Source of the DNA: Bacillus sp. NEB1478 | GTDB lineage: Bacteria; Bacillota; Bacilli; Bacillales; Fictibacillaceae | NCBI RefSeq assembly: GCF_031582965.1 | Contig: NZ_CP134049.1 | Location: 930,001-994,000 of the forward strand | Direction of reading: 5' to 3' | DNA: 64,000 bases | In this document: positions 1 to 19,635 of the stretch, piece by piece | Position numbering within the stretch: the first letter of the stretch is position 1 | Layout: each line of letters starts with the position of its first letter | Made by a program: the position numbers and the translations under genes | The notes under the pieces: model-generated | What the model saw: only the letters and a program-made list of their open reading frames with translations | Told to the model about the DNA's origin: nothing | The model's database searches: none

Positions 1-870
1 TCTGCAGTTTGGTCTGGTGGATCATTCATTTATGTTCCAAAAGGTGTTAAGTGTGATACACCGCTTCAAGCTTATTTCCGAATCAACTCTGAAAATATGG
101 GTCAGTTCGAGCGTACGCTTATTATTGCGGATGAAGACAGCTCTGTACACTATGTAGAAGGATGTACAGCTCCGGTTTATTCTACAAACTCACTTCATAG
201 TGCGGTAGTAGAGATCATCGTAAAGAAAAACGCTTATGCACGTTATACAACGATCCAAAACTGGGCGAACAACATTTATAACCTTGTTACAAAGCGTGCG
301 GTAGCAGAAGAAAACGCAACGATGGAATGGGTAGATGGCAACATCGGATCTCGTCTAACAATGAAGTATCCGGCTGTTATTATGAAAGGCCGCGGAGCAA
401 AAGGTACTATTCTTTCAATCGCGATCGCTGGTAAAGGACAGCACCAAGATGCTGGAGCAAAAGTATTGCACCTAGCACCAGATTGTTCTTCTACCATTGT
501 TTCGAAGTCCATTTCGAAGCATGGCGGGAAAGTAACATACCGTGGTATCGCTCATTTCGGGCGCAAATCTGATGGATCTAAATCTAACGTTAAGTGTGAT
601 ACGCTTATCATGGATAACCAGTCTACTTCAGATACAATTCCGTACAATGAAATCTTAAACAACAACATTACTCTTGAGCATGAAGCAACGGTTTCAAAAG
701 TTTCTGAAGACCAATTGTTCTACCTCATGAGCCGTGGTGTTTCTGAACAAGAAGCAACGGAAATGATCGTAATGGGCTTTATCGAGCCATTTACGAAAGA
801 ACTTCCAATGGAATATGCAGTAGAAATGAACCGCCTGATCAAGTTCGAGATGGAAGGTTCAATCGGATAA
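1..870 (+). CDS. sufB: Fe-S cluster assembly scaffold SufB (3' part; 5' end outside window)
   Basis: The reading frame is open from base 1 and ends with TAA at 868-870, giving about 289 C-terminal residues of a protein usually near 465 residues. The sequence ([20 protein letters not shown] near the window edge, FEMEGSIG at the C terminus) is typical of SufB. SufB is the core of the SufBCD complex that assembles iron-sulfur clusters in the cytoplasm. It is presumably the last gene of a sufCDSUB operon, because a strong terminator follows within 40 bp. Its last 30 bases recur twice downstream, at 14051 and 19563 (see findings). Confidence 0.96.
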
Positions 871-882
871 AGTCTGAAAAGC
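836..882 (+). repeat. sufB 3'-end repeat, copy A (in gene)
   Basis: The last codons of sufB and the bases just after them form copy A of a direct repeat found again at 14048-14127 and 19562-19635. The shared core reads AGTTCGAGATGGAAG followed by TTCAATC. In copies A and B the likeness continues through the stop codon and the terminator for more than 100 bp. This fits an attachment site at the 3' end of sufB that is rebuilt by each incoming element. Confidence 0.75.
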
Positions 883-915
883 CTTGGTATATAAGGAATA
901 TACCAAGGTTTTTTT
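882..915 (+). terminator. Rho-independent terminator after sufB
   Basis: Perfect 10-bp stem CCTTGGTATA/TATACCAAGG with a 7-base loop, followed by seven T. The same hairpin, almost base for base, is repeated at 14094-14127. Confidence 0.93.
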
Positions 916-1147
916 ATATGCAAATTAGTGTCGTGCCAACTCGAAATTTATTTCTTTGCATTTTAAGTTATAAAATTCTTCTTATTCAACAAACGGGCAA
1001 GATTTTGGAATAAGTAACTACTCTGTTGTTAAAAGTACATCTATGTTAGTATTTGATGCAAACGTAGTTTTAAATTATTGTGTTAGTGAGTAATTACATC
1101 TTTACAATGAACATAACCCATGAGTATGAAATTCAACAGTTTCAAGT

Positions 1148-1300
1148 TTCTAAAATTGCTGAAACCTAAAGGTAAGGGGAACGGTTTATTGGATTTTTTA
1201 ATTCCAAGGAGTGAATCCTTAAGCAGGTAGGGCTACTCAAAGGCCAGATTCCGACAGCTAATCTCATATGTGTTTATGAGAAGGAAGGTAAAGCTTGTAA
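1148..1300 (+). promoter_or_regulatory. c-di-AMP riboswitch (ydaO-yuaA type), apparently orphan
   Basis: The conserved blocks of the ydaO/yuaA aptamer appear in order: AAGGGGAACG, GGAGTGAATCCTT, GGTAGGGCTACT and CCGACAGCTAATCTCAT. In Bacillus this RNA senses c-di-AMP and usually controls potassium or amino-acid uptake and cell-wall hydrolase genes. The next gene on this strand starts 400 bp away and is a sigma-54 activator, which is not a usual target, and a terminator at 1500-1530 lies between. The normal target gene was probably lost. Exact ends are approximate. Confidence 0.78.
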
Positions 1301-1499
1301 GACTAAAAAGTTTTTAATTTTAATTTACCCACCAAACTTTCCGCATTTTACCCACAAGAGTATCAACTTTGATATATTTTAATGTACACATATTTTTTAA
1401 AAGGGTTGATTTTCTGCGGTTTAAGGACCTATTAATACTTAAAAAACACACATAGTATCTGTTCCGTACGCAAGTTCATCCATGAAACATCCTAAAAGA

Positions 1500-1530
1500 C
1501 CCATGGCAATTTAAAAGCCATGGGTTTATT
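1500..1530 (+). terminator. Rho-independent terminator downstream of the orphan riboswitch
   Basis: 8-bp stem CCCATGGC/GCCATGGG with a 9-base loop, followed by TTTATT. It ends any transcript coming from the riboswitch before the regulator gene at 1705. The rest of 916-1704 holds no gene that I can support. Confidence 0.8.
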
Positions 1531-1704
1531 GTATATTTGAACTTTTGTAACTAGTAGTGCATGGATTTATAAACGATAATCAAATAATCTTTTAGATGGT
1601 GATCTTCAAGCAAAGACCCAGACTTTATAAAAAGAATATTTACCTAGCCTCTTTTTTTGCATTTGTATGTTAAATTATAAAACAAAGAAAGGAGTGTAGA
1701 GAAA

Positions 1705-3534
1705 ATGATCGCTTTGTATAAATTAAATAAAACACTAGAAGCTATCTTCACTCAACTATTAATCGAACAAGGTATTCAACCAACCTGCTTCCATTCTAAA
1801 AAATCGATTATCGATCATATGATGAACCCTTTTGTTTTAATTACTCCTTTACCTTATGTAAACGAGGTTCAATCCTTTTCTATCCCTATTGTACCTGTCT
1901 CCATTCATTTAAGTGATTTCGAAAAAACGATTAATGAACAAAATCTTTATGAACATAATCTCTTAATTTTGGTGTCAGATGAAGAAAAAAAGTGGTTAAA
2001 CACTGAAAATCTTCTGATGTATCAGAACCATTTTGATATTTGCAGCAAGGAATTTGTTGAACTCGGTAACGCCAATAAAAACACAACATTTCTTGTTCCT
2101 TCTTGGGAAAGTAGTCTCCCCGTTTCTAAACGAAATGAAAATGTCCTTTATGTTCATCCTTCAATGGATACCATGGTTTCCGCAACACGTCAGGCAATGA
2201 ACTTAACCGATGTGACGAAAGAGATGTTTAAAGAAAAATACCAGGTACAGGCCATTGCCGATTCTGCTCATGATGGTTTAATAGCGGTAGACAAGCAAGG
2301 GAAAATAACACTAACCAATAATAATGCGAAAAAGTATCTAGGGCTAGAAGGGGATGTGGTCGGACGGAACATTACAGAATATATCCCACATTCCGATATG
2401 CTGAGAGTGCTGCAAACTGGTAAGAAAGAAATAGGGGATGTAGCCAAGATACTTGATCGCCAAATCATTATAAACCGTTACCCCGTTATTCTTAACAACA
2501 CTGTCGTTGGAGCAGTATCCAATTTTAAAGAAATTACCGACCTGCAAAGAATGGAAATGAAACTAAGGAAAAAATTGCATGAAAACGGATTAGAAGCAAA
2601 ATACAGACTGGAGGACATTATTGGGGAAGTCAAAGAGATTCGTGAAGCTAAAGAACAGGCTAAGATCTTTGCGCAAACAGATGCAACGGTACTCATTACA
2701 GGAGAATCTGGGACAGGAAAAGAATTGTTTGCACAAGGAATCCATCTGCAGAGCAGCCGGGCAATTGGTCCATTTGTTGCGGTTAATTGTGCCGCTTTTC
2801 CTGAAAATTTACTAGAGACTGAATTGTTTGGTTATGAAGAAGGCAGTTTTACAGGAGCTAAAAAAGGTGGTAAGCAGGGACTGTTTGAATTGGCGCATGG
2901 AGGATCTTTGTTTTTGGATGAAATCGGAGAAATGCCTTTGCAAATTCAGTCTCACTTATTACGAGTTCTTCAGGAAAGATCGATCCGGAGAGTCGGAGGA
3001 CAACGAACCATTCCTGTTAATGTACGGATTATTGCAGCAACCAATACAAACATCGAAGACGAAATTGAAAAGAAGCAGTTTAGAAAAGATTTATACTATC
3101 GTTTAAATGTACTTTCACTTGAATTGCCGGCACTAAGAAACAGACTAGAGGATGTTCCCTTGCTTACCTGTCATTTTATAAAGCAATTTAATGAACAGCA
3201 TCAAAAGCAAATCGAAAAGATCGATGAAGATTTTTATTTAGTTTTACAAGACTATCACTGGCCAGGAAATATTCGTGAGTTACGAAATGTTTTAGAACGA
3301 ATCGTCTTGCTTCAAAAAGGTTCAGCCATAACGGCTAAAGATGCCTGGTTTTATTATCCTAAACTTAGAAAGAAGAGAACTCAAACAATTGCCAGCATTG
3401 CGACCATTAAAGAGAATGAAAAAGATTTAATTCAAGGTGCGCTTCAACAATATAACAGCAGAGGAGAGGCGGCAAAGTCTCTTGGAATTGACCGATCGAC
3501 CCTTTGGCGCAAAATCAAAGAATACAAGCTTTGA
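1705..3534 (+). CDS. Sigma-54-dependent transcriptional activator (PrpR-like sensor, PAS, AAA+, HTH)
   Basis: A 609-residue enhancer-binding protein. The N-terminal ~180 residues resemble the PrpR-type ligand-sensing domain. A PAS-like segment follows at about 185-285 ([19 protein letters not shown]). The AAA+ domain at ~300-535 has Walker A GESGTGKE, the sigma-54 contact loop GSFTGA (a GAFTGA variant) and [10 protein letters not shown] as Walker B. A Fis-type helix-turn-helix closes the protein ([20 protein letters not shown]). The start ATG has the site AAAGGAGTG 10 bases upstream. It directly precedes a -24/-12 promoter at 3643, so it very likely activates the catabolic genes downstream. 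The ligand is unknown. Confidence 0.93.
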
Positions 3535-3582
3535 TGCTTTATTTTGAAACAGATGATGCAAAATGAAACGAATATAGTGGAA

Positions 3583-3625
3583 TTTCTGATTTTTTATGCC
3601 CTATCATACCTAAAAAATTCAGAAA
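3583..3625. promoter_or_regulatory. Inverted repeat upstream of the sigma-54 promoter, candidate activator site
   Basis: TTTCTGATTTTTTA at 3583-3596 is matched by TAAAAAATTCAGAAA at 3611-3625, an inverted repeat with one extra base in one arm. It lies about 20-60 bp before the -24 element. It is AT-rich and has no proper T-tract, so an operator for the adjacent activator is more likely than a terminator. This is an inference. Confidence 0.45.
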
Positions 3626-3642
3626 ATTTAAAATTAACTGAA

Positions 3643-3660
3643 TCGGCATGAAACTTGCAT
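3643..3660 (+). promoter_or_regulatory. Sigma-54 (-24/-12) promoter
   Basis: TCGGCATGAAACTTGCAT has GG at 3645-3646 and GC at 3657-3658, separated by exactly 10 bases as sigma-54 requires, with the canonical TTGCA at -12. It sits 34 bp before the TTG start of the dehydrogenase gene and just after a sigma-54 activator gene. Confidence 0.85.
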
Positions 3661-3693
3661 TAATAATTGACAAACAAAAAATGAGGTGATAGC

Positions 3694-4779
3694 TTGCAAC
3701 ATTTCTCAATAGCGGCCATACCTGGAGACGGAATTGGACCTGAAGTCATGGCAGAAGGGTTAAAAACATTAAAGAAAATTGAGGAACTGCACGGAGGCAT
3801 TCATTTCTCCATTGACACGTTTGATTGGAATTGTGATTACTATTTAAAACACGGAAAGATGATGCCGGATAGTGGCCTGGACATTCTGCGGGATTACGAT
3901 GTGATTTTGCTTGGTGCCATCGGTGCACCAACTGTTCCTGACCACATTTCAGTATGGGAATTGATCCTCCCCATTCGCAGAGCCTTTCAGCAATATATCA
4001 ATTTGCGGCCTATAAAACTATTAAGGGGTTTAGAGAGTCCTCTTCGTTATAAAGCCCATAAAGATCTGGATTTTGTCGTAGTGCGTGAAAACACAGAAGG
4101 AGAGTACTCCAATATGGGAGGGAGGTTACATGAAAACACTCCCTTTGAGCTTGCGGTACAAAATAATGTCTTTACGAGATACGGAACCGAACGAGTTATC
4201 AATTATGCTTATTCGCTTGCTGAAAAAAGAACGAGGAAAAAGCTGACGTCAGCTACAAAATCGAATGGAATCAATCACTCGATGCCTTTCTGGGATGAAA
4301 TCGTCAAGGAAGTGAGCAAGCATCATCCTAGCGTCCAGACGGACATCTATCACATTGATGCACTGGCAGCTTATTTTATTACCAGACCTGAAGAATTGGA
4401 TGTTGTCGTGGCGAGCAATCTGTTTGGCGATATTTTAACAGATCTTGGCGCAGCTATTGTAGGTGGTTTAGGACTAGCACCTTCCGGAAACATAAATCCG
4501 GAAAAAAATTATCCTTCGATGTTCGAACCCATTCATGGTTCTGCGCCTGACATTGCCGGAAAGAAAATTGCCAATCCCATTGCGCAGATTTGGAGTATTA
4601 GCTTAATGATGGAGCATCTTGGTTTTTCTGATATTGCGAAATTGATCGTATCATCGATTGAAGAGGTTCTCATTGATGGAAATGTGTCTACCCCGGACCT
4701 CGGAGGGAAAAATACGACCAGTGAATTTGGAGAAGCTATTCTTCAGCAAATGACCAATAAACGTATAAATTTTATTTAA
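3694..4779 (+). CDS. Tartrate/D-malate-type decarboxylating dehydrogenase (isopropylmalate dehydrogenase superfamily)
   Basis: A 361-residue NAD-dependent beta-decarboxylating dehydrogenase closest in signature to TtuC/DmlA/YcsA: GDGIGPEV at the N terminus, [38 protein letters not shown] and [14 protein letters not shown]. The family oxidises (R)-malate, tartrate or related 2-hydroxyacids and releases CO2. The start is TTG at 3694 with GAGGTGAT 4-10 bases upstream. It is the first gene of the sigma-54-driven cluster. From context the substrate could be 3,3-dimethylmalate, giving 2-oxoisovalerate; tartrate or D-malate are the default alternatives. Confidence 0.88.
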
Positions 4780-4794
4780 GGAGATGAAAAAAGG

Positions 4795-6242
4795 ATGACC
4801 GAGACACAAACTTCTCTATTACATGAAAAAAAATACCCTTTATACATTAACGGGAAACATATTCAAACCGATCATCATATTCCTGTTTACCATAAGTACA
4901 CAGGAGAAGTGATTGCATCCATCGCGAAAGCGGATAAACATCATGTAGAGCAGGCCGTGGCTGCAGCTGAAGAAATCTTTCAATCCGACAAATTAACAGC
5001 TTTTCAACGATCTACTATTCTTTTAAAGGCAGCAAATCTAATGGAACAAAGACGGGAGGATTTTGAGCTTTCTTTAGTCAGAGAAGTTGGAAAAACCCGC
5101 AAAGATGCTGCAGGTGAATTGGATCGAACAATTAACACGATCCGTTTATCAGCGGAAGAGGCGAAACGGATTTCAGGAGAAATGATTCCACTGCAGGCGA
5201 CAGAAGGGGCAGACAACCGGTTAGGGTTTACCATTCGTGTTCCTAAAGGCGTTATAGGTGTGATTACCCCATTCAATTACCCTTTGTTATTAGGGGTCCA
5301 TAAAATTGCACCTGCTCTCGCTGCTGGCAACACCATCGTGATCAAGCCTGCTACCGCAACTCCGCTGGCTACCTTTCAATTAGTAGAACTTTTAGAAGAA
5401 GCAGGTCTGCCAAAAGGATATGTGAACATCATTACTGGATCAGGAAGTGAGGTGGGTGAATGGCTTTTGAATGATGAACGGATAGCGATGTATACGTTTA
5501 CCGGCTCAGGTGAAGTAGGTAAGCACATTAAGAACGAAGCGGTTTACGGCCGGTAGCACTTGAACTGGGAAACAACTCCCCGAATATAGTTCATAAAGAC
5601 GCAGATCTGGATCTTGCTGCCAAACTGACCGCAAGCCGCAGTTTTCATAATGCAGGACAAGCCTGTATAGCCGTTCAACGCCTGTTTGTGCATCAATCTG
5701 TATTGAATGAGTTTACAGAAAGCTATTTAGCGTATGTACAACAGCTGAAAGTCGGCGATCCGGAAAAACCAGAAACAGATGTAGGTCCGATGATTAGTGA
5801 GAAAGAAGCGATTCGGTCAGAGGAATGGGTGAATGAAGCGATCGAACAAGGAGCTAAAGCATTGCTTCCGATAAAGAGGGAAGGAGCGATCCTATTCCCA
5901 ACAGTACTCGTGGATACGAATCCTTCTATGAAAGTGGTTTGTAAAGAAGTCTTTGCTCCTATCGTTTGTATCATCCCTTATCAAGATATTGATGAAGCTT
6001 TTCACTCTGCGAATCAATCAGAGTATGGTTTACAAGCTGGGATTTTCACTCGTGATTTGCAGTTGGCAATGAAGGCGGCGAAGGTACTGCAATATGGAGG
6101 AGTCATTATTAATGATGTATCCACTTACCGTAATGATGTTATGCCTTATGGGGGAGTGAAAAACAGTGGAATTGGAAAGGAAGGTCCGTATTATGCGATT
6201 CAAGAAATGACAGATGAACGAATGGTGGTGATGAATCTATGA
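4795..6242 (+). pseudogene. NAD(P)-dependent aldehyde dehydrogenase, interrupted by a 1-base frameshift
   Basis: Two reading frames together make one 482-residue aldehyde dehydrogenase. The first part runs from ATG 4795 to a stop at 5554-5556. The second continues in the next frame to 6242. The family sequence EAGLRPVALELG is restored if one G is added near 5541, so one base is missing. The break lies just before the catalytic Glu loop (LELGNN) and upstream of the catalytic Cys (GQAC), so neither half could work alone. The N-terminal half has the ITPFNYP and TGSGEVGK motifs. It could be a true pseudogene or a sequencing error in an intact gene. The neighbours are all intact. Confidence 0.88.
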
Positions 6243-7012
6243 ATACTGGATTGCTAGAAAGAAAAACCGCCATTATTACTGGAGCAGGATCAGGTATGGG
6301 AAAAGCTGCAGCCAAACTATTTGCTGCACAAGGAGCAAACGTGGTGTTAGCGGATTTAAATATAGATGCTGCAGACCAAACTGCAAAAGAAATAAATCAG
6401 ACTGGACAAGTTCTCGTCATCCAAACGGATGTGGGAGACGATGAAAGTGTCCAGAATCTTGTAAATGAGACGTTCAATACATTTGAAGATATGGATGTAA
6501 TAGTTAATTGTGCCGGGGTTCCACAATTCTTTACACCGATTGAAGAAATGAGTATCAGTGAATGGGAAAAGATTATGTCAGTTAATACAAAATCCATTTT
6601 TCTAACCACACGTCATCTAGTCCCTTATATGAAAAAGAAGGGAAAAGGATCGATAATAAATATCGCATCCATTGCAGGGATCCGGGCTAGGCCTGGACTA
6701 AATGCCTACTGTGCATCTAAAGGAGCGGCCATTATGTTAACGAAAGCATTGGCGCTTGAATTAGCCCCATTTAAAATCCGGGTTAATGCAATTAATCCAG
6801 GGCCTGCTGAAACCCCAATGCTAGGGAAATTTTTGCCTGGCGATGCCCAACAAGTAGAGGAAGACAAAAAGAAAATCTTTATTGACAGTGTTCCATTAGG
6901 TACGCTAATCCAGCCTGAGGATATTGCCCAAGCAGCTTTGTATCTTGCTTCTGATCTCTCCAAGGCTGTTACTGGGGAAATCATGAATGTAGACGGAGGA
7001 AGAGGAATCTAA
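6239..7012 (+). CDS. Short-chain dehydrogenase/reductase (SDR)
   Basis: 257 residues with the classical SDR layout: the nucleotide-binding TGAGSGMG near residue 15, NCAG near 90, catalytic Ser in NIASIAG and the YCASK catalytic Tyr/Lys near 158, ending in the usual NVDGGRGI. The start ATG overlaps the stop of the aldehyde dehydrogenase frame by four bases (ATGA), so the two are translationally coupled. The family oxidises secondary or primary alcohols. Here it would supply the aldehyde for the dehydrogenase before it, which is an inference from gene order. Confidence 0.9.
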   Translation: MNTGLLERKTAIITGAGSGMGKAAAKLFAAQGANVVLADLNIDAADQTAKEINQTGQVLVIQTDVGDDESVQNLVNETFNTFEDMDVIVNCAGVPQFFTPIEEMSISEWEKIMSVNTKSIFLTTRHLVPYMKKKGKGSIINIASIAGIRARPGLNAYCASKGAAIMLTKALALELAPFKIRVNAINPGPAETPMLGKFLPGDAQQVEEDKKKIFIDSVPLGTLIQPEDIAQAALYLASDLSKAVTGEIMNVDGGRGI

Positions 7013-7051
7013 ATTGCTTAATAAATCCAGTAATGAAAAGGGGAGAATGTT

Positions 7052-8377
7052 ATGAATCAGCCGATTGTCACGATTGAAGAGCGCACTACTAAAAAAGTCT
7101 TTTGGAGAATCATTCCCTTTATTTTCTTGTTATATATTGTCGCCTTTCTTGATCGGGTAAATCTTGGTTATGCTGCATTAGATATGAATAAAGAGTTAGC
7201 AATTGCCAGCTCTACTTTCGGGTTAATCTCTGGAATTTTTTTCTTCGGCTACTTCCTGTTTGAGATTCCAAGTAATATACTGCTCCACAAGGTTGGCGCG
7301 AGAAAGTGGATTGCACGCATCATGGTCAGCTGGGGCATAGTAGTTATTTTGACAGCATGGGCTCAAAGCGCTACACACCTCTATATTTTACGTTTTCTTC
7401 TTGGTGTAGCAGAAGCCGGCTTTTTTCCAGGAGTTATTTTATATATTACTTATTGGTTCCGGGCGAAAGAACAGGCTAGAGCTTTTGCCTTATTCATGAC
7501 TGCGCTTGCAGCCTCCAATATTATTGGAGCTCCATTATCTACTTGGATCATGGATAACATTAGTTGGGCTGGGATGCAAGGATGGCGCTGGATGTTTATT
7601 TTGGAAGGAATACCCGCAATTATCATAGGGATAGTAACGTATTATTACTTAACCGATCGTCCACAAGAGGCAAAATGGTTAACAAAGGAAGAAAAGGAGT
7701 GGCTCATTCAAGAAATTCGCCATGAAAACGAGCAAAAAGAGAGCAACAAGCATCATTCTGCACGTCAAGTATTGACTAATCCTCACGTTTGGAGACTATC
7801 TTTCATCTACTTAACGCTAGTTATTGGTTTGTATGGTATTGGATTTTGGATGCCTACTATCATAAAATCATTTTCATCGATTCTCACGAATACGCAGGTG
7901 GGACTCATTACAATGGTTCCTTATATTGCCGGCGGTATTTGTATGATATTGTGGGCTCGACGGTCAGACAGGTCAGGGGAACGAAGAATGCACACTGCAT
8001 TGCCGCCATTATTAGGGGCGTTAGGTTTAATCGGTGCTGGAATGACTACTAATCCGTATCTGTCTGTTGTAATGATGTCCATTGCAACCATCGGAATTTA
8101 CAGCTTTTTTGGTCCTTTCTGGTCACTTCCCGCTTTCTTCTTGACAGGAGCTTCTGCAGCTGTTGGAATAGCGTTAATTAATTCAATTGGTAATCTCGGG
8201 GGATTTGTTGGTCCTTATATGATTGGTTATTTAAATGATCTTACTGGGAATATGGAGGCAGGGTTATATTTTCTAGGCTTTAGTTTGATTATTACAAGTT
8301 TGCTAGTGTTTAGCATTAAAAAACAAATTTCGGTTGTAAAAACAGAAGCACCGTTGGTGAAAAAGAAATCGTCATAA
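7052..8377 (+). CDS. MFS transporter, anion:cation symporter (ACS) type
   Basis: 441 residues with about 12 hydrophobic segments. The N-terminal sequence FLDRVNLGYAALDMNKEL and the loop GVAEAGFFPGVILYITYW are hallmarks of the ACS family, which takes up organic anions such as tartrate, hexuronates, phthalate or other hydroxyacids by proton symport. Start ATG 7052 has AAAAGGGGAG upstream. It lies 39 bp after the SDR in the same operon. A small hydroxyacid related to the pathway substrate is the likely cargo. Confidence 0.9.
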   Translation: MNQPIVTIEERTTKKVFWRIIPFIFLLYIVAFLDRVNLGYAALDMNKELAIASSTFGLISGIFFFGYFLFEIPSNILLHKVGARKWIARIMVSWGIVVILTAWAQSATHLYILRFLLGVAEAGFFPGVILYITYWFRAKEQARAFALFMTALAASNIIGAPLSTWIMDNISWAGMQGWRWMFILEGIPAIIIGIVTYYYLTDRPQEAKWLTKEEKEWLIQEIRHENEQKESNKHHSARQVLTNPHVWRLSFIYLTLVIGLYGIGFWMPTIIKSFSSILTNTQVGLITMVPYIAGGICMILWARRSDRSGERRMHTALPPLLGALGLIGAGMTTNPYLSVVMMSIATIGIYSFFGPFWSLPAFFLTGASAAVGIALINSIGNLGGFVGPYMIGYLNDLTGNMEAGLYFLGFSLIITSLLVFSIKKQISVVKTEAPLVKKKSS

Positions 8378-8407
8378 GTAACCGGTGGAGCTACAGGGGG
8401 GATTTTA

Positions 8408-9271
8408 ATGACAAAGCCTCTTATTCAGGTTAACAAGGTTTCTTTTGAATATAGCTTAAACAATAATCGTTCCATACAAGTACTGAATGAGGTTTCATTT
8501 GATATTTTTCCAGGTGAATATGTAGCTATTATAGGTCATAATGGCTCTGGTAAATCTACACTTTCAAAACATCTGAACGGTATCTTAAAACCTAGTAGCG
8601 GAGATGTTTTTATTAGCGATTACAATACAAAAGAACAAAAGCTGCAACGTGAAATTCGTAAGAAGGTAGGGATGGTGTTTCAGCATCCCGATAACCAAAT
8701 CATCGCTACCATTGTTGAAGACGATGTGGCTTTTGGGTTAGAGAATATCGAAGTACCTGCTTCAGAAATGAAAGAAAGAATTGATTTTGCATTGGAAGCG
8801 GTTGGAATGAGTGATTTCCGGAAAAGACCACCTCATCATCTCTCAGGAGGACAAAAACAGCGTGTCGCCATTGCAGGAATCCTTGCGATGAAGCCCGATT
8901 GTTTAGTGCTGGATGAGGCAACCAGCATGCTGGACACCTATGGCAGAAGAGATATTCTGGACGTTGTCCGCAAGCTTAATAACGAGGGAATGACGATCAT
9001 TTCAGTAACCCACCATATGTCAGAAGTAGCTGAAGCAAGCAGGGTCATTGTCATCGAAAAAGGCAAAATTGTAATGGTTGGCACACCAAGAGAAATTTTT
9101 CAGCACTCTGAACTGCTGCATCAGTTGCAACTCGATGTTCCTGTAGCCAATCAAATTGCGAGATCGGTTCATGAATATGACAATGAATTTCGGTCAGATT
9201 TAATTCATAATGACGAGATTATTCAAGAGGTTATGCGTTTGTCAGCCAAGAGAGGGGTGTATGTAGGATGA
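8408..9271 (+). CDS. ECF transporter ATP-binding subunit (EcfA1-like)
   Basis: 287-residue ABC ATPase of the CbiO/EcfA class: Walker A GHNGSGKST, Q-loop VFQHPDNQI, signature LSGGQKQR, Walker B LVLDEATSMLD and switch histidine in VTHH. One of two different ATPases of an energy-coupling-factor transporter. Start ATG 8408 follows AGGGGGG by 7 bases. It overlaps the next gene by ATGA. The housekeeping EcfA pair normally sits in the ribosomal-protein region, so this is an extra, dedicated copy. Confidence 0.92.
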   Translation: MTKPLIQVNKVSFEYSLNNNRSIQVLNEVSFDIFPGEYVAIIGHNGSGKSTLSKHLNGILKPSSGDVFISDYNTKEQKLQREIRKKVGMVFQHPDNQIIATIVEDDVAFGLENIEVPASEMKERIDFALEAVGMSDFRKRPPHHLSGGQKQRVAIAGILAMKPDCLVLDEATSMLDTYGRRDILDVVRKLNNEGMTIISVTHHMSEVAEASRVIVIEKGKIVMVGTPREIFQHSELLHQLQLDVPVANQIARSVHEYDNEFRSDLIHNDEIIQEVMRLSAKRGVYVG

Positions 9272-10140
9272 ATGATAATCCCATTTTAGAAGTAAATCAT
9301 TTACAGCATATCTATATGGAAAAGACACCTCTTGAACACCAGGCGCTCTCTGGAGTCAGTTTGCGGGTGTATGGTGGGGAATGCATAGCTATTATTGGAC
9401 ATACGGGATCAGGAAAATCTACTTTAATTCAGCATTTCAATGGGCTGATGCTGCCCCAGCGTGGAGAAGTAATCGTAGACGGCCAACTTTTATCTGATCC
9501 AAAGCTAGATGTTAAAGGATTGCGAAGAAAAGTTGGCCTTGTGTTTCAGAACCCTGAGGATCAAATTTTTGAAAAATTGATCGGTGATGATATTGCTTAT
9601 GGTCCATTAAAGATGGGGCTTCCATTAAAAGAAGTAAGAAACCGTGTGAAATGGGCAATGGAATTAGTTGGTCTTCCCTTTGAAGAACTGAAAGACCGGG
9701 TTACCTATGCCTTAAGCGGCGGCCAAAAAAGAAAAGTCGCCTTGGCAGGGGTGTTGGCTCTAAAACCTAAAATTTTGGTATTGGACGAGCCGACAGCCGG
9801 TCTTGATCCTCGCTCACGACAGGAGCTTTTGGACAATATTGTTCAGTTGAACAAAAAAGAAAACATGACCGTCATCTTTGTCTCTCACAACATGGAGGAA
9901 GTAGCGTATTTAGCCAAAAGAATTTACGTATTAGCAGATGGCAAAAATCTGATTGAAGGAACACCACGGGACATTTTTGGTAATAATGAAACCCTTGCAA
10001 AGCATCATATTGGAGCACCGCAAACGGTGGAGATCCTCACGAAGTTAAAAGAGCAAGGTTATGATGTCAATCTTAAAGCGTATGAAATAGAAGCAGCCAC
10101 AAAAGAAATCGTTTCTGTTCTTCAATCTTGTAGGAGGTGA
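9268..10140 (+). CDS. ECF transporter ATP-binding subunit (EcfA2-like)
   Basis: 290-residue second ATPase: Walker A GHTGSGKST, VFQNPEDQIF, signature LSGGQKRK and LVLDEPTAGLDP. It pairs with the preceding ATPase to form the asymmetric A1-A2 dimer typical of ECF transporters. Start ATG 9268 overlaps the upstream stop by four bases. The stop at 10138-10140 lies inside the ribosome binding site region of the next gene. Confidence 0.92.
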   Translation: MNDNPILEVNHLQHIYMEKTPLEHQALSGVSLRVYGGECIAIIGHTGSGKSTLIQHFNGLMLPQRGEVIVDGQLLSDPKLDVKGLRRKVGLVFQNPEDQIFEKLIGDDIAYGPLKMGLPLKEVRNRVKWAMELVGLPFEELKDRVTYALSGGQKRKVALAGVLALKPKILVLDEPTAGLDPRSRQELLDNIVQLNKKENMTVIFVSHNMEEVAYLAKRIYVLADGKNLIEGTPRDIFGNNETLAKHHIGAPQTVEILTKLKEQGYDVNLKAYEIEAATKEIVSVLQSCRR

Positions 10141-10145
10141 GGGAG

Positions 10146-10991
10146 ATGGCTAGTTTTGAATTCGAATTAACCCGCAATATTACGATCGGCCAGTATTTGC
10201 CGACTGGTTCACTCATTCATCGTCTTGATCCCCGTATTAAGCTTTTAGCCTTCACCATTCTTGTTATTGCAATGGCTGTATGCCACACCTACGTTGGAAA
10301 CATGATCGCACTTGCTTTTGCCTGTTATTTGTTTTACATCTCACGCATTCCGGTCAGCTATGGTTTATCCGGAGTTAAGCCAGCCATACCTTTCATTTTG
10401 ATATTAGCTGTCTTGCAGCTATTGTTCTATAGTGAAATCGCTTCAGGCGGAACGGTTATTGTTGACTATAGCTTTATCCTGATTACGAGTGATAGTATCC
10501 GCTTGGTAATCGTTTCTGCACTTCGATTTATTGAGATCATTTTTTTAAGCAGTGTATTAACGTTAAGCACTTCGACCACACAAATTACACATGGGATCGA
10601 GAGTTTGTTGGACCCTTTAAAACATGTGAAGTTTCCGGTCCATGAATTTGCGCTGATTATTACGATTGCGATCCGGTTTGTTCCTACGTTTGCGATGGAA
10701 ATGGAAAAAATGATGAAAGCTCAAGCTTCAAGAGGAGCAGAATTTGGAACGGGTGCCTGGTGGAGAATTATCCAGAGAACAAAAGATGTATTTCCTATTA
10801 TCATTCCTTTATTCAATGTTGCTATAGCACGGGCGGAAGATTTAGTGCTGGCAATGGAAGCCAGATGCTATACACCAGGAGGTGAGCGTTCCATCTATAC
10901 TAAGTATAAAGCGAAGAGCAGGGATTATATGGCGCTTCTTTCCTGTGTCTTGTTTGCTTTTCTCTTACTGGCTTTTCCTTTCCCCTATTAG
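10146..10991 (+). CDS. ECF transporter transmembrane subunit (EcfT)
   Basis: 281 residues with several hydrophobic helices and the two coupling-helix motifs of EcfT: an Ala-Ser-Arg-Gly motif (QASRGAEF) and a second Ala-Arg motif (MEARCYTPGG). These contact the ATPases. ATG 10146 is preferred over GTG 10137 because AGGAGG at 10132-10137 gives 8-base spacing to the ATG. It joins the A1, A2 and S genes around it into a complete ECF transporter. Confidence 0.9.
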   Translation: MASFEFELTRNITIGQYLPTGSLIHRLDPRIKLLAFTILVIAMAVCHTYVGNMIALAFACYLFYISRIPVSYGLSGVKPAIPFILILAVLQLLFYSEIASGGTVIVDYSFILITSDSIRLVIVSALRFIEIIFLSSVLTLSTSTTQITHGIESLLDPLKHVKFPVHEFALIITIAIRFVPTFAMEMEKMMKAQASRGAEFGTGAWWRIIQRTKDVFPIIIPLFNVAIARAEDLVLAMEARCYTPGGERSIYTKYKAKSRDYMALLSCVLFAFLLLAFPFPY

Positions 10992-11065
10992 ATTATTAAT
11001 CTGATCTTTCTGTAATAAGGACACACAATTATAGCATCTAATACAAATTTAAGGAGGGTAATAGA

Positions 11066-11623
11066 ATGGAAAGAGGATTAACTACTAGAAAGATTGTCAT
11101 TGCAGGAGTCTTAGGAGCAGTAGCTATTTTACTAGGTGTCACCCGGTTAGGTTTTATTCCTGTTCCAACTGCAGCAGGTAACGCTACCATCATGCATATC
11201 CCGGCTATCATTGGAGGCATCATGCAAGGACCGTTTGTTGGACTAGTCATCGGACTAATCTTCGGTGTGTCGTCGTTTCTTGATGCGACCATACCACTAT
11301 TTAAAGACCCGTTAGTAGCCATTATTCCTAGGCTGTTTATCGGAGTGGCCGCCTATTTAGCTTACGTTTCTATTAGGAGAGTAAATGAATATGCTGCTAT
11401 TGGTCTTGCGGGATTTGTTGGAGCTTTTACGAATACGCTACTCGTTTTGACAATGGCGGTAATTAGAGGTTATATTGCTCCGGGTGTTGCTGTTACAATC
11501 GCTTTAACCAACGGAATTCCCGAAGCGATCGTTTCTGTTATCATCACGCTGGCTGTGGTTGTTGCATGGAAAAAGCTGGACCATCGTGGGAACAAGAAAT
11601 CAAAGATCTCAAGAGAAATATAG
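11066..11623 (+). CDS. ECF transporter substrate-binding S component (PanT/FolT-like family)
   Basis: 185 residues, about six membrane helices, start ATG with AAGGAGGG 8 bases upstream. The segment IPAIIGGIMQGPFVGLVIGL is typical of the S-component family that includes pantothenate (PanT) and folate (FolT) binders. The S subunit sets the specificity of the transporter formed with the three genes before it. The close link with amidases and 2-hydroxyacid oxidation genes suggests pantothenate or a related amide as substrate, which is an inference. The last codons overlap the next gene (TAGTG). Confidence 0.82.
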   Translation: MERGLTTRKIVIAGVLGAVAILLGVTRLGFIPVPTAAGNATIMHIPAIIGGIMQGPFVGLVIGLIFGVSSFLDATIPLFKDPLVAIIPRLFIGVAAYLAYVSIRRVNEYAAIGLAGFVGAFTNTLLVLTMAVIRGYIAPGVAVTIALTNGIPEAIVSVIITLAVVVAWKKLDHRGNKKSKISREI

Positions 11624-12588
11624 TGGAACGGTTTCATAATATTACAGACGTTCCGGGCATTAAAATTGGTAATGAAGAAGACAAAATAGGTTATACAGGT
11701 TGTACCGTTTTATTGTTAGAGAAGGGTGCTGTTTGCAGTGTAGAAGTCAGAGGTTCTGCTCCTGGAACAAGAGAAACAGATTTACTTAATCCTATGAATC
11801 TCGTAGACCGTGTGCATGGTATCTGTCTAGCGGGAGGAAGTGCCTATGGACTTGATGCTGCAAGCGGTGTCATGCAGTATCTGGAAAAACAAGGCATTGG
11901 GCTTGATGTTGGAGTTGGAGTGGTTCCGATTGTTCCGTCGGCCGTTCTGTTTGATTTGCCGGTAGGAGATCCTGCTGCTCGGCCTGATCAAAAAATGGGA
12001 TATCAGGCGGCATTAAAAGCGAAACGTGGACGTTTTCCTTTCGGTAATTCAGGAGCAGGATGCGGAGCAACAGTTGGAAAAGTTGCAGGTCACCATCGAG
12101 CCATGAAAGGTGGACTTGGTTCGGCGTCTAAAGTTTTCCCAAATGGTTTAATTGTCGGAGCCCTTGTTGCAGTTAATGCAGTGGGGGAGATTCGAAATGA
12201 AACAGGAGAAGTAATTGCCGGTGCGAGAAATGATCAAGGGAGAATAAGGAGCAGTATAGAGTGGATGCTTGAACAGCCCGCCATTCCCCTGACAGCAGGT
12301 ACCAATACAACAATAGGGATTGTTGCATGCAATGCAAAGTTAACTAAATCGCAGGTCTCTAAGGTAGCCTCAATGGCACATAATGGTTTAGCAAGAACAA
12401 TTTATCCTGTTCATACGTTGTACGACGGAGACACCATTTTTTCATTGGCTACTGGGGATATTGATGCGTCTGTTGATCTGATTGGGACGATTGCTGCAGA
12501 CGTTTTGGCTGAAGCAGTCATCTTAGCGGTTAAGAATGCTGAAGGGATTGAGGGATTTCCATCAAGTAAAGATGTCTATGAATCTTAA
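11623..12588 (+). CDS. P1 family peptidase / beta-aminopeptidase-type Ntn hydrolase
   Basis: About 321 residues of the P1 (DmpA/BapA/NylC) family: DVPGIKIGN near the start, RGSAPGTRETDLL, ICLAGGSAYGLDA and the processing site region GNSGAGCGATVGK. These proteins cleave themselves, and the new N-terminal residue becomes the nucleophile. Here the residue at the expected place is Cys147 rather than the Ser or Thr of characterised members. GTG 11623 fits where the family normally begins and couples to the upstream stop; an in-frame ATG at 11566 would add 19 residues inside the S-component gene. Members cleave beta-alanyl or other small amides. Confidence 0.85.
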   Translation: MERFHNITDVPGIKIGNEEDKIGYTGCTVLLLEKGAVCSVEVRGSAPGTRETDLLNPMNLVDRVHGICLAGGSAYGLDAASGVMQYLEKQGIGLDVGVGVVPIVPSAVLFDLPVGDPAARPDQKMGYQAALKAKRGRFPFGNSGAGCGATVGKVAGHHRAMKGGLGSASKVFPNGLIVGALVAVNAVGEIRNETGEVIAGARNDQGRIRSSIEWMLEQPAIPLTAGTNTTIGIVACNAKLTKSQVSKVASMAHNGLARTIYPVHTLYDGDTIFSLATGDIDASVDLIGTIAADVLAEAVILAVKNAEGIEGFPSSKDVYES

Positions 12589-12606
12589 TAAGAAAGGACT
12601 TGAGCA

Positions 12607-13821
12607 ATGAATACTACGACAGAATCTATTCTTCAGTATGTTGATCAAAAAGAAGTGGTTGAACTAACAAGAACTCTTATACGTATTCAAAGTGTCTATC
12701 GTCCAAATGTCGAGGGTGGTAACGAAGCAAAGGTAGCTCGTTTCATAGTTGATTACCTCAAGAATATCGGTTTAGAGGTTTATTACGAAGAAGTAGTACC
12801 AGGCAGGCCAAATGTTATTGCCATTTATGACTCTGGTTTTCCAGGAAAAACCCTTTTATTTGAAGGACATACAGATGTAGTGACTGAAGGAGACCTTGAT
12901 TCTTGGACATACGATCCTTTTGGCGGAGAAATCAGTAACGGGAGAATTTATGGAAGAGGTTCCTGTGATACAAAGGGAAATTTAGCTGCTGCTATTTCTG
13001 CCGTTCATTCACTGAAAAAATCGGGCGCAGCTTTTACAGGGAAAATTATACTTTGCATCCCATGTGACGAAGAGGGGATGATGATCGGAATTAAAGATTT
13101 TATCAGAAGAGGCTGGGCTGATAACGTGGATGGAGCCATTATCTGTGAGCCAGAGGAAAATCAGCTGTGCATTACACAAAAAGGGGCGATGCGCATCGTT
13201 TTAAAAACGTACGGAAAAATGGCTCACGGTGCGATGCCACTCACAGGAATTAATCCTACTACACGAATGGCCAAATTAATTGTGGAATTGGATCAATTAG
13301 AACAAAGAGAAAAAGAACGGCTTGGTGAACATCCTTATCTTGGCTGGCCGAGTATTACACCAACTATTGTACAAGCACCTGTTAAGGGAGAGCCGCAAAT
13401 TAATGTTGTTCCGGCACAATGCATGACCGCACTTGATATCCGCACAGTACCTGGTCAGGAACATGAGCAATTGGCGAAGGAAATAGAAGGCATTATTGAG
13501 CGGCTGAGCAAGGAAGATCCAGATTTTAAAGCGACATTTGAACTCATCGAAGATAGGCCTTGGACGGAGACGCCTAAAGATCATGACGTGGTACAGGCAG
13601 TGGCGCAGGCTTATACACAAGTTACGGGAAATACCCCTGTCTATAATGGGGTACCAGGGGCGACAGATGGAACGTTCCTCCATCTCGCAGGTGTACCGAT
13701 CCTTACAACAGGTGCAGGTGATCGCTATATTCCTCATCATGCTGATGAATATGTAGATATTGATGAACTCATTAAGACCGTAAAAATCTATACACTTTCC
13801 GCCCTTAACTTTCTGAAATAG
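12607..13821 (+). CDS. M20 family metallo-amidohydrolase (ArgE/DapE-like)
   Basis: 404 residues. Zinc-ligand motifs are visible: FEGHTDVV (His and Asp), GRGSCDTKG (bridging Asp), the catalytic EEG and a C-terminal His in YIPHHADEY. This family removes N-acyl groups from amino acids. Start ATG follows AAGAAAGGACTTGAGCA. In this cluster it is the best candidate for hydrolysing an N-acyl amino acid such as pantothenate (pantoyl-beta-alanine). It is annotated only as an N-acyl amino acid deacylase because the substrate is not visible in the sequence. Confidence 0.88.
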   Translation: MNTTTESILQYVDQKEVVELTRTLIRIQSVYRPNVEGGNEAKVARFIVDYLKNIGLEVYYEEVVPGRPNVIAIYDSGFPGKTLLFEGHTDVVTEGDLDSWTYDPFGGEISNGRIYGRGSCDTKGNLAAAISAVHSLKKSGAAFTGKIILCIPCDEEGMMIGIKDFIRRGWADNVDGAIICEPEENQLCITQKGAMRIVLKTYGKMAHGAMPLTGINPTTRMAKLIVELDQLEQREKERLGEHPYLGWPSITPTIVQAPVKGEPQINVVPAQCMTALDIRTVPGQEHEQLAKEIEGIIERLSKEDPDFKATFELIEDRPWTETPKDHDVVQAVAQAYTQVTGNTPVYNGVPGATDGTFLHLAGVPILTTGAGDRYIPHHADEYVDIDELIKTVKIYTLSALNFLK

Positions 13822-14047: not shown

Positions 14048-14127
14048 TAATCAAGTTCGAGATGGAAGATTCAATCGGGTAAACTCAAAAAGACCTTGGT
14101 ATATAAGGATTATACCAAGGTTTTTTT
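14048..14127 (+). repeat. sufB 3'-end repeat, copy B, with its terminator
   Basis: The bases encoding IKFEMEDSIG plus stop, then the hairpin CCTTGGTATA/TATACCAAGG and seven T, repeat the end of sufB (836-915) with only a few changes. The likeness extends past the terminator (TTAGT, TCGTGCC, ATTTATTT). There is no open frame before it, so it is a detached gene end, as left by site-specific insertion at the 3' end of sufB. Confidence 0.85.
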
Positions 14128-14207
14128 ATATTGAATTTAGTTCGTGCCGATAGGGATTTATTTTTTGTAATACAAGGGATAACAGAAGATGAACTCAATT
14201 TCTTTTC

Positions 14208-19509: not shown

Positions 19510-19561
19510 ACCTGGAAAACCTAGATTTAACAAGGTTTATTCATCTGAAAGTGTTCATTAA

Positions 19562-19635
19562 TTGAGTTCGAGATGGAAGGTTCAATCCAATCGGATAAAC
19601 ATTGAAAGACCTTGGCTGCATGCCTAGGTCTTTTT
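19562..19635 (+). repeat. sufB 3'-end repeat, copy C, with terminator
   Basis: TTGAGTTCGAGATGGAAG followed by TTCAATC, then a CAATC duplication, CGGATAA and a hairpin (GACCTTGG/CCTAGGTC at 19608-19630, then TTTTT). This is the third copy of the end of sufB plus terminator. It lies outside any open frame and closes the copper island. The hairpin differs from those of copies A and B, so it may be the original chromosomal terminator of sufB. Confidence 0.8.

Follow-up and report, generated by a model that had tools for sequence, protein, structure and literature searches.

A candidate pantothenate catabolic operon with its own ECF-type importer in Bacillus sp. NEB1478 and related Bacillota

Pantothenate (vitamin B5) is degraded by Pseudomonas fluorescens through pantothenase (EC 3.5.1.22) and the pantoate 4-, aldehyde, and dimethylmalate dehydrogenases (EC 1.1.1.106, 1.2.1.33, and 1.1.1.84). 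The Pseudomonas pathway was described at the level of enzyme activities, and to our knowledge the genes for the three dehydrogenase steps are unassigned. This report concerns a gene cluster in a 64,000-nt stretch of DNA (hereafter the window; positions 930,001 to 994,000 of contig NZ_CP134049.1) from Bacillus sp. NEB1478, part of a 3.93-Mb genome on a single contig. All of the enzyme classes required by the P. fluorescens pathway were found in one operon of the window; unlike that pathway, the cluster encodes a PanT-type energy-coupling factor (ECF) importer and adds an S58 family hydrolase. A 2023 paper (PMC10393543), in its available text, reports pantothenate cleavage in Escherichia coli and several other bacteria, gives pantothenase activity as known from P. 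fluorescens, cites a 1966 paper on pantothenate hydrolase, and describes the pantothenase protein as unknown. The first-pass annotation had remarked that genes for several of the steps are poorly assigned. For transport, PanF and PanT are described as B5 transporters, PanT mostly in B5 auxotrophs, and PanS as the Salmonella pantoate transporter (PMC6593275, available part). ECF transporters have been characterised as micronutrient scavengers, and the ECF module of Lactobacillus delbrueckii is shared by several S components (PMC7755397, available part). Among the matches listed, no gene cluster of this kind was found in the open-licence literature.

We are highly confident that the substrate is pantothenate or an amide yielding pantothenate, and the cluster is very probably a catabolic operon for that compound. 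The chemistry is known already; what is new is the set of candidate genes for its steps. It is reasonably likely that the M20 family amidohydrolase is the first gene-assigned bacterial pantothenase and that the operon-type dehydrogenases are the dimethylmalate, pantoate 4-, and aldopantoate dehydrogenases of a Bacillota-wide pathway in which ECF-PanT, PanF, and PanS-like transporters replace one another. If this is true, pathway genes across many Bacillota families are presently labelled “tartrate dehydrogenase,” “M20 peptidase,” and the like; the annotation of many Bacillota genomes would be corrected, and the division of bacteria into makers and destroyers of vitamin B5 would be affected. 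Testable genes are thereby named for the pantothenase step and three further steps, the candidates are set apart from the D-malate/tartrate enzymes with which automatic annotation lumps them, and a catabolic role is suggested for an ECF vitamin importer.

Operon layout, control, and distribution

An activator gene is followed by eleven open reading frames (ORFs) corresponding to ten genes, all on the + strand, in an operon at 3644 to 13821. TTC denotes the TtuC/DmlA-type decarboxylating dehydrogenase, SDR the short-chain dehydrogenase/reductase, ALDH the aldehyde dehydrogenase, MFS the major facilitator superfamily permease, S the ECF S component, and arm or trio the set TTC-SDR-ALDH; L numbers are compared loci. 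The gene order, 5' to 3', is TTC, ALDH (two ORFs), SDR, MFS, EcfA1, EcfA2, EcfT, S, S58, and M20. The first-pass annotation had listed an S component, M20 and P1 amidases, an SDR, an ALDH, and a TtuC/DmlA-type dehydrogenase, and all were found at the place it gave, on one strand; its start at 3643 coincides with the sigma-54 element at 3644. It had overlooked a frameshift in the ALDH gene and the activator gene as part of the unit. The features are as follows.

1705 to 3534, + strand: sigma-54-dependent activator with PAS, AAA+, and Fis-type helix-turn-helix domains; PrdR/PrpR-like, below the cut-offs of those models
3583 to 3625, no strand: imperfect inverted repeat with 13-nt arms (92% complementary), putative activator-binding site
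3644 to 3660, + strand: sigma-54 -24/-12 promoter element
3694 to 4779, + strand: TTC, proposed (R)-3,3-dimethylmalate dehydrogenase, EC 1.1.1.84 (TIGR02089, tree, loop)
4795 to 6242, + strand: ALDH, frameshifted near 5549, proposed to act on the 4-aldehyde of pantoate, EC 1.2.1.33
6239 to 7012, + strand: SDR, proposed pantoate 4-dehydrogenase, EC 1.1.1.106
7052 to 8377, + strand: MFS permease (best model HpaX)
8408 to 9271, + strand: ECF ATPase EcfA1
9268 to 10140, + strand: ECF ATPase EcfA2
10137 to 10991, + strand: ECF transmembrane protein EcfT
11066 to 11623, + strand: PanT-like S component (PDB matches, pocket residues)
11623 to 12588, + strand: S58/P1 (ThnT/NylC-type) hydrolase, accessory, perhaps a pantetheine hydrolase (Pfam match, starts of relatives)
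12607 to 13821, + strand: M20 amidohydrolase (ArgE/DapE-like), proposed pantothenase, EC 3.5.1.22

In the proposed scheme, in which every substrate and the direction of control are predictions from sequence, pantothenate would be used as a carbon and nitrogen source under sigma-54 control, with the activator at 1705 to 3534 acting on the -24/-12 promoter at 3644. ECF-PanT, made up of its own EcfA1-A2-T and the S component, would bring in pantothenate, and S58 may free it from larger amides, for example pantetheine. M20 would then hydrolyse the amide bond of pantothenate, giving beta-alanine and (R)-pantoate, whose 4-hydroxyl the SDR would oxidise; the ALDH would turn the pantoate-derived aldehyde into (R)-3,3-dimethylmalate, and the TTC would decarboxylate the latter to 2-oxoisovalerate. 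Beta-alanine would be processed by a class III aminotransferase and MmsA, whose genes lie at another place in this genome and, in some relatives, next to the cluster.

The activator gene was linked to the operon in other loci too and is a member of its unit. Of the 36 loci that carry the regulator, 34 have a -24/-12 element at most 450 nt after it, compared with 27 of 720 random stretches from the same loci; in the window, the element stands beside a sigma-54 activator, as in a sigma-54 operon. Upstream of the activator, a cyclic di-AMP (ydaO) riboswitch aptamer was detected at 1147 to 1287 (45.9 bits, cut-off 38), with no ORF of at least 60 amino acids between the two. No aptamer match was obtained in L016, and the searched stretches of L061, L062, and L063 end too near the activator to show one.

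Searches with the S58 protein gave a match in 8 of the 34 family genomes and, at order level, in 38 of 348 (E ≤ 1e-60), and 43 loci around S58 were inspected; a search for related loci starting from S58 yielded 4 relatives. Among named genomes, the nearest ones bearing the cluster belong to Fictibacillus barbaricus and further members of its family; in the same genus, the cluster occurred in 2 of 18 genomes, the window genome included. Conservation of the whole set had been proposed as a check, and TTC-ALDH-SDR, ECF-S, S58, and M20 were indeed found in the window order in seven Fictibacillaceae loci (the MFS gene is not in the table for L016). Two loci of another family, L065 and L067, have the set in a different order, and L064 has ECF-S-S58-M20 with no TTC nearby. 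The remaining 33 of the 36 other S58 loci of the order gave no TTC, S, or M20 match.

Transporters and choice of amidase

A search for M20 orthologs (E ≤ 1e-120) gave hits in 45 of 398 class-level genomes and in 8 of 398 genomes of a phylum sample, the own genome being counted in each, and the other 44 and other 7 loci (51 in all) were compared. Together with 13 TTC-found loci (35 TTC loci were compared out of more than 150 matches, mostly the best ones) and 10 S58-found loci, they form the 74 pan loci. Within 9.5 kb of M20, 38 of the 44 class-level and 5 of the 7 phylum-level loci (43/51) carried a gene for PanF or for a PanT-like S component (at least 50% identical to the query), versus none of 33 other-S58 loci and none of 22 TTC loci without the SDR-ALDH arm (0/55 controls; symporter matches of 29-30% in L211 and L212 were not scored as PanF). 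Fisher's test gave 7e-22 for these counts, with rows that are non-independent, many class-level loci being of one family (f68); counted by family, 10 of 11 class-level families had at least one such locus. PanF was verified with TIGR02119 in eight loci (L161, L162, L167, L169, L181, L182, L236, and L238; 619 to 723 bits, cut-off 328) and assigned by BLAST only in L207, L213, L214, L235, and L237. PanF (TIGR02119) and PanS-like proteins (NF047939) thus neighbour the same catabolic genes in relatives, and neither is in the window cluster.

The only PDB matches of the window S component below E = 0.1 were 4rfs_S (1.5e-9) and 6zg3_C (7.1e-7), which are closer than the other solved S components (RibU, 5kbw, at 0.88) and which we take to be Lactobacillus ECF-PanT entries, because the published pocket R and N fall at the published numbers in both chains. 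The PanT pocket residues are given as R95, N131, and W64 in L. brevis numbering (PMC7755397, available part). The pocket R and N are retained in 46 of 46 S components. The window cluster thus resembles Lactobacillus ECF-PanT in having a homologous S component with this R and N, and differs in that the pocket W is F and in that the S component is encoded together with a dedicated ECF module in a presumed catabolic operon. The S component was the sole match of its protein in the window genome at E ≤ 0.001, and the operon EcfT shares 38% and 26% identity with other EcfT homologs elsewhere in the genome. By sequence, a pantothenate-type importer is present, as a PanT-like S component in the window and as PanF in other loci. 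The MFS permease was closest to HpaX (358 bits, below the cut-off of 615).

Two amidases could open the route. In M20, the H and D of GHTD, the D of GRGSCD, DEE, the E of CEPEE, and the H of PHH were each kept at a level of at least 98% among 62 proteins, and these are presumably the metal ligands (His, Asp, Glu-Glu, Glu, and His). The S58 protein matched Pfam Peptidase_S58 (PF03576) at 160 bits; its start is probably the GTG at 11623, because S58 proteins of relatives begin near there. It contains GTNTTIG, of which TT, assumed here to be the Asn-Thr self-cleavage and nucleophile site, was kept at a level of at least 98% among 48 proteins. ThnT, a part of thienamycin biosynthesis, acts on pantetheine. 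The window S58 is like ThnT in matching the solved entries (171 to 174 bits) and in its nearly invariant nucleophile-site TT; it is unlike ThnT in that the polyamide hydrolase 9cxr is nearer in sequence (251 bits).

Some of the 74 pan loci have M20 and no S58: in 9 of them M20 neighbours PanF, in 4 it neighbours a PanT-like S component, and in 5 it has another setting. No locus had S58 without M20 (by construction for the 51 M20-found loci). All 10 S58-found loci with an S component had M20, and the 13 TTC-found loci had M20 in 4 and S58 in none. Because M20 is present without S58 beside PanF or a PanT-like S component, it is the best pantothenase candidate, and it probably fills that role; S58 looks accessory, perhaps a feeder for larger amides, and its assignment as a pantetheine-type hydrolase is tentative. 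With the roles reversed, S58/P1 would be the pantothenase and M20 would act on another amide. Such an exchange would agree with the relation of S58 to ThnT, with the presence of S58 in 42 of the 46 loci having M20 and a PanT-like S component, and with the Pseudomonas pantothenase, which forms an acyl-enzyme and in this fits the Thr/Ser nucleophile of S58, or another Ser/Thr amidase, better than M20. The counts of M20 without S58 and the S58-found and TTC-found loci run counter to it. So do the neighbours of S58, which suggest another substrate: peptide-type ABC genes in L163 (by eye) and in L208 and L209, which have the same labelled genes, and OPT-type genes in L235 (by eye) and L236 (best model, 143 bits versus a cut-off of 182). 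The exchange is judged unlikely, and S58 as the sole pantothenase was made less likely by the M20 loci without S58.

The relation to ThnT and the peptide-type transporter genes adjoining S58 in other loci would also suit an operon that degrades pantetheine or another coenzyme A breakdown product, with S58 freeing pantothenate and the same route following; only the first substrate would then differ from that proposed here. The S component resembles PanT, and loci with PanF or a PanT-like S component and no S58 exist; both count against a pantetheine substrate, which appears somewhat doubtful.

At L182 (2946 to 13287), one strand carries an aminotransferase, MmsA, PanF, an amidase-family protein, TTC, SDR, and ALDH. 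The amidase-family protein (best model PRK07869, below cut-off) occupies the place expected for M20.

Oxidative arm, beta-alanine genes, and opposing evidence

SDR, ALDH, and TTC are contiguous and are the right enzyme classes for the three steps from pantoate to 2-oxoisovalerate, with the ALDH frame broken in the window genome. A tree of 60 TTC proteins, rooted at its midpoint only, separated 37 arm-linked rows plus L165 and L166 from 20 non-arm rows plus E. coli DmlA (branch support 96/89). L065 and L164 (length filter) and L157, L180, and L211 (ORF not extracted) were left out of the tree, and the loop count additionally leaves out L215 and L216, a long-branch pair. The loop is W-E-L-I in the window and W-E/D/Q-x-I on the operon side (E in 35/39, I in 38/39). 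Outside the operon type it is W-G-x-L, the G and L being shared by all of the non-arm rows counted (18/18), by E. coli DmlA, and by 3flk, and this form is missing from the window TTC. In isopropylmalate dehydrogenase the loop lines the substrate pocket, and a bulkier C3 substituent, such as the gem-dimethyl group of dimethylmalate, would be a plausible explanation of the change. The window TTC is like the tartrate/D-malate dehydrogenases 3flk and E. coli DmlA in belonging to the same Iso_dh subfamily and in passing TIGR02089, and unlike them in its loop and in lying across the supported branch; that the operon type is distinct from the D-malate/tartrate type is supported by these comparisons.

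The transporters beside the TTC genes follow the same division. Of the 12 TTC-found loci that carry the SDR-ALDH arm, 8 had a PanF or PanS-like transporter alongside, as against none of the 22 that lack it (L166, with TTC and no SDR-ALDH, is in neither side of this comparison). At L168 and L171, TTC-SDR-ALDH adjoin a PanS-like transporter (286 and 303 bits), and no M20, S58, or amidase-family match was found at either locus; such an arrangement would be predicted for a trio acting on pantoate and an amidase acting on pantothenate. The trio could instead serve tartrate, D-malate, or another hydroxyacid, with the vitamin transporter adjacent by chance. That explanation would account for the TIGR02089 (“tartrate dehydrogenase”) match and for the trios at L176 to L178, which lie with TRAP-type genes and have no amidase match; the 8/12 versus 0/22 contrast and the separation of two TTC kinds by tree and loop residues make it highly improbable. 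A tartrate/D-malate role for the TTC gene was rejected on context, tree, and loop residues. By eye, L176 to L178 also have a GlcD-type oxidase with the trio and TRAP-type genes, divergent in L176.

Genes for beta-alanine (aminotransferase and/or MmsA, at least 50% identity, within the examined stretch) were present in 9 of the 74 pan loci versus none of the 55 controls; the queries were taken from L013, which counts by construction. L013, from F. barbaricus, has MmsA (TIGR01722, 622 bits, cut-off 448) and a class III aminotransferase directly after M20, and L067 carries both as well (MmsA confirmed with TIGR01722). In the window genome, an aminotransferase-MmsA pair lies elsewhere (C1:1394336), beside a PucR-like gene. 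The four-step chemistry put forward in the first-pass annotation thus gains support from the swapped transporters, the beta-alanine genes, and the TTC tree and loop residues; it is refined in that M20 is a likelier pantothenase than P1/S58, that S58 looks accessory, that the ALDH is frameshifted in the window genome, and that the operon has a sigma-54 activator of its own.

The window ALDH is broken by a one-base frameshift near 5549 into ORFs at 4795 to 5556 and 5688 to 6242. Its frame is open, with no stop, in 7 of 7 other cluster-bearing genomes of the family, of which L014 and L063 are near-identical in the TTC tree, so the frameshift would be either a recent lesion or a sequencing error in the window genome. 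Further ALDH genes are present elsewhere in the genome and might stand in for the frameshifted copy.

Several observations weigh against pantothenate catabolism as proposed, in addition to the acyl-enzyme mechanism of the Pseudomonas pantothenase. The frameshift may mean that the pathway does not run in the window strain. All 46 of the S components have F where PanT has W64, its third pocket residue, and the alignment to 6zg3 has V at published position 69, so that either the numbering is off or the alignment is shifted. Eight of the 51 M20 loci (L147, L149, L150, L163, L208, L209, L240, and L241) have neither PanF nor a PanT-like S component, and the PanS-like proteins score below the NF047939 cut-off of 400. 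The window TTC scores 539 bits against TIGR02089, above the cut-off of 470, and E. coli DmlA sits on a long branch of the TTC tree, its placement unsure. The TTC arm was not seen nearby in 20 of the 44 class-level loci, and at least one of these, L205, comes from a short contig; of the 7 further phylum-level loci, only one showed TTC. In loci with no arm seen nearby, M20 may thus be confined to salvage. These last counts, six of seven phylum-level loci being without TTC, would fit a vitamin salvage cluster in which import and cleavage merely recycle beta-alanine and pantoate for coenzyme A, and several bacteria are reported to cleave imported pantothenate and reuse beta-alanine (PMC10393543, available part). 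For the window operon, catabolism is suggested by the sigma-54 activator and by the presence of the oxidative route to 2-oxoisovalerate, and there is only a small chance that the operon serves salvage alone. PanB was present in 11 of 11 cluster-bearing genomes searched (the search covered PanB, not PanC, PanD, or PanE), which suggests that these genomes are able to make vitamin B5; PanT, described mostly from B5 auxotrophs, is here found in PanB-bearing genomes.

Variant loci and genomic setting

Some loci depart from the window arrangement. Among loci with M20 and the trio, L147 and L149 have a symporter nearest MctP (212 and 232 bits, cut-off 625), and L150 is a third such locus. In L236, from another class of the phylum, a single run of genes (431 to 9136) holds PanF, M20, an aminotransferase, PanB (TIGR00222, 345 bits, cut-off 208), an OPT-type transporter, S58, and two PanE-like pieces. 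This run would stand either for pantothenate synthesis in reverse, with PanE and PanB working backwards, or for a salvage cluster of mixed kind. Plasmids were searched with M20 (17 records, all below 60% identity) and with the TTC of L181 (473 records); the SDR-ALDH-PanF set was found in none of five inspected records of the latter, and the pathway was not traced outside Bacillota.

The cluster is flanked in the window by the following features.

838 to 958, strand not stated: sufB 3' end and terminator, with a similar copy at 14050 to 14167
14093 to 14121, flagged on the - strand (by eye, a T run follows it on the + strand): terminator-like hairpin inside the second sufB 3'-end copy

The two sufB copies share 88% identity over 92 nt, with a start-to-start spacing of 13212, and the whole pan cluster lies between them, in what is read as an insertion boundary. 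No recombinase was noticed among the ORFs of the pan insert in the window ORF list. A third sufB 3'-end copy lies at 19546 to 19615, so that the three copies bound two consecutive inserts, the 13.2-kb pan cluster and an approximately 5.5-kb block with CsoR- and CopA-like ORFs (by eye). The sufB 3' end appears to be a hotspot for insertions. In a relative genome (G004), the pan cluster is on another contig, and one sufB 3'-end copy was found in the 2.5 kb from its sufB end.

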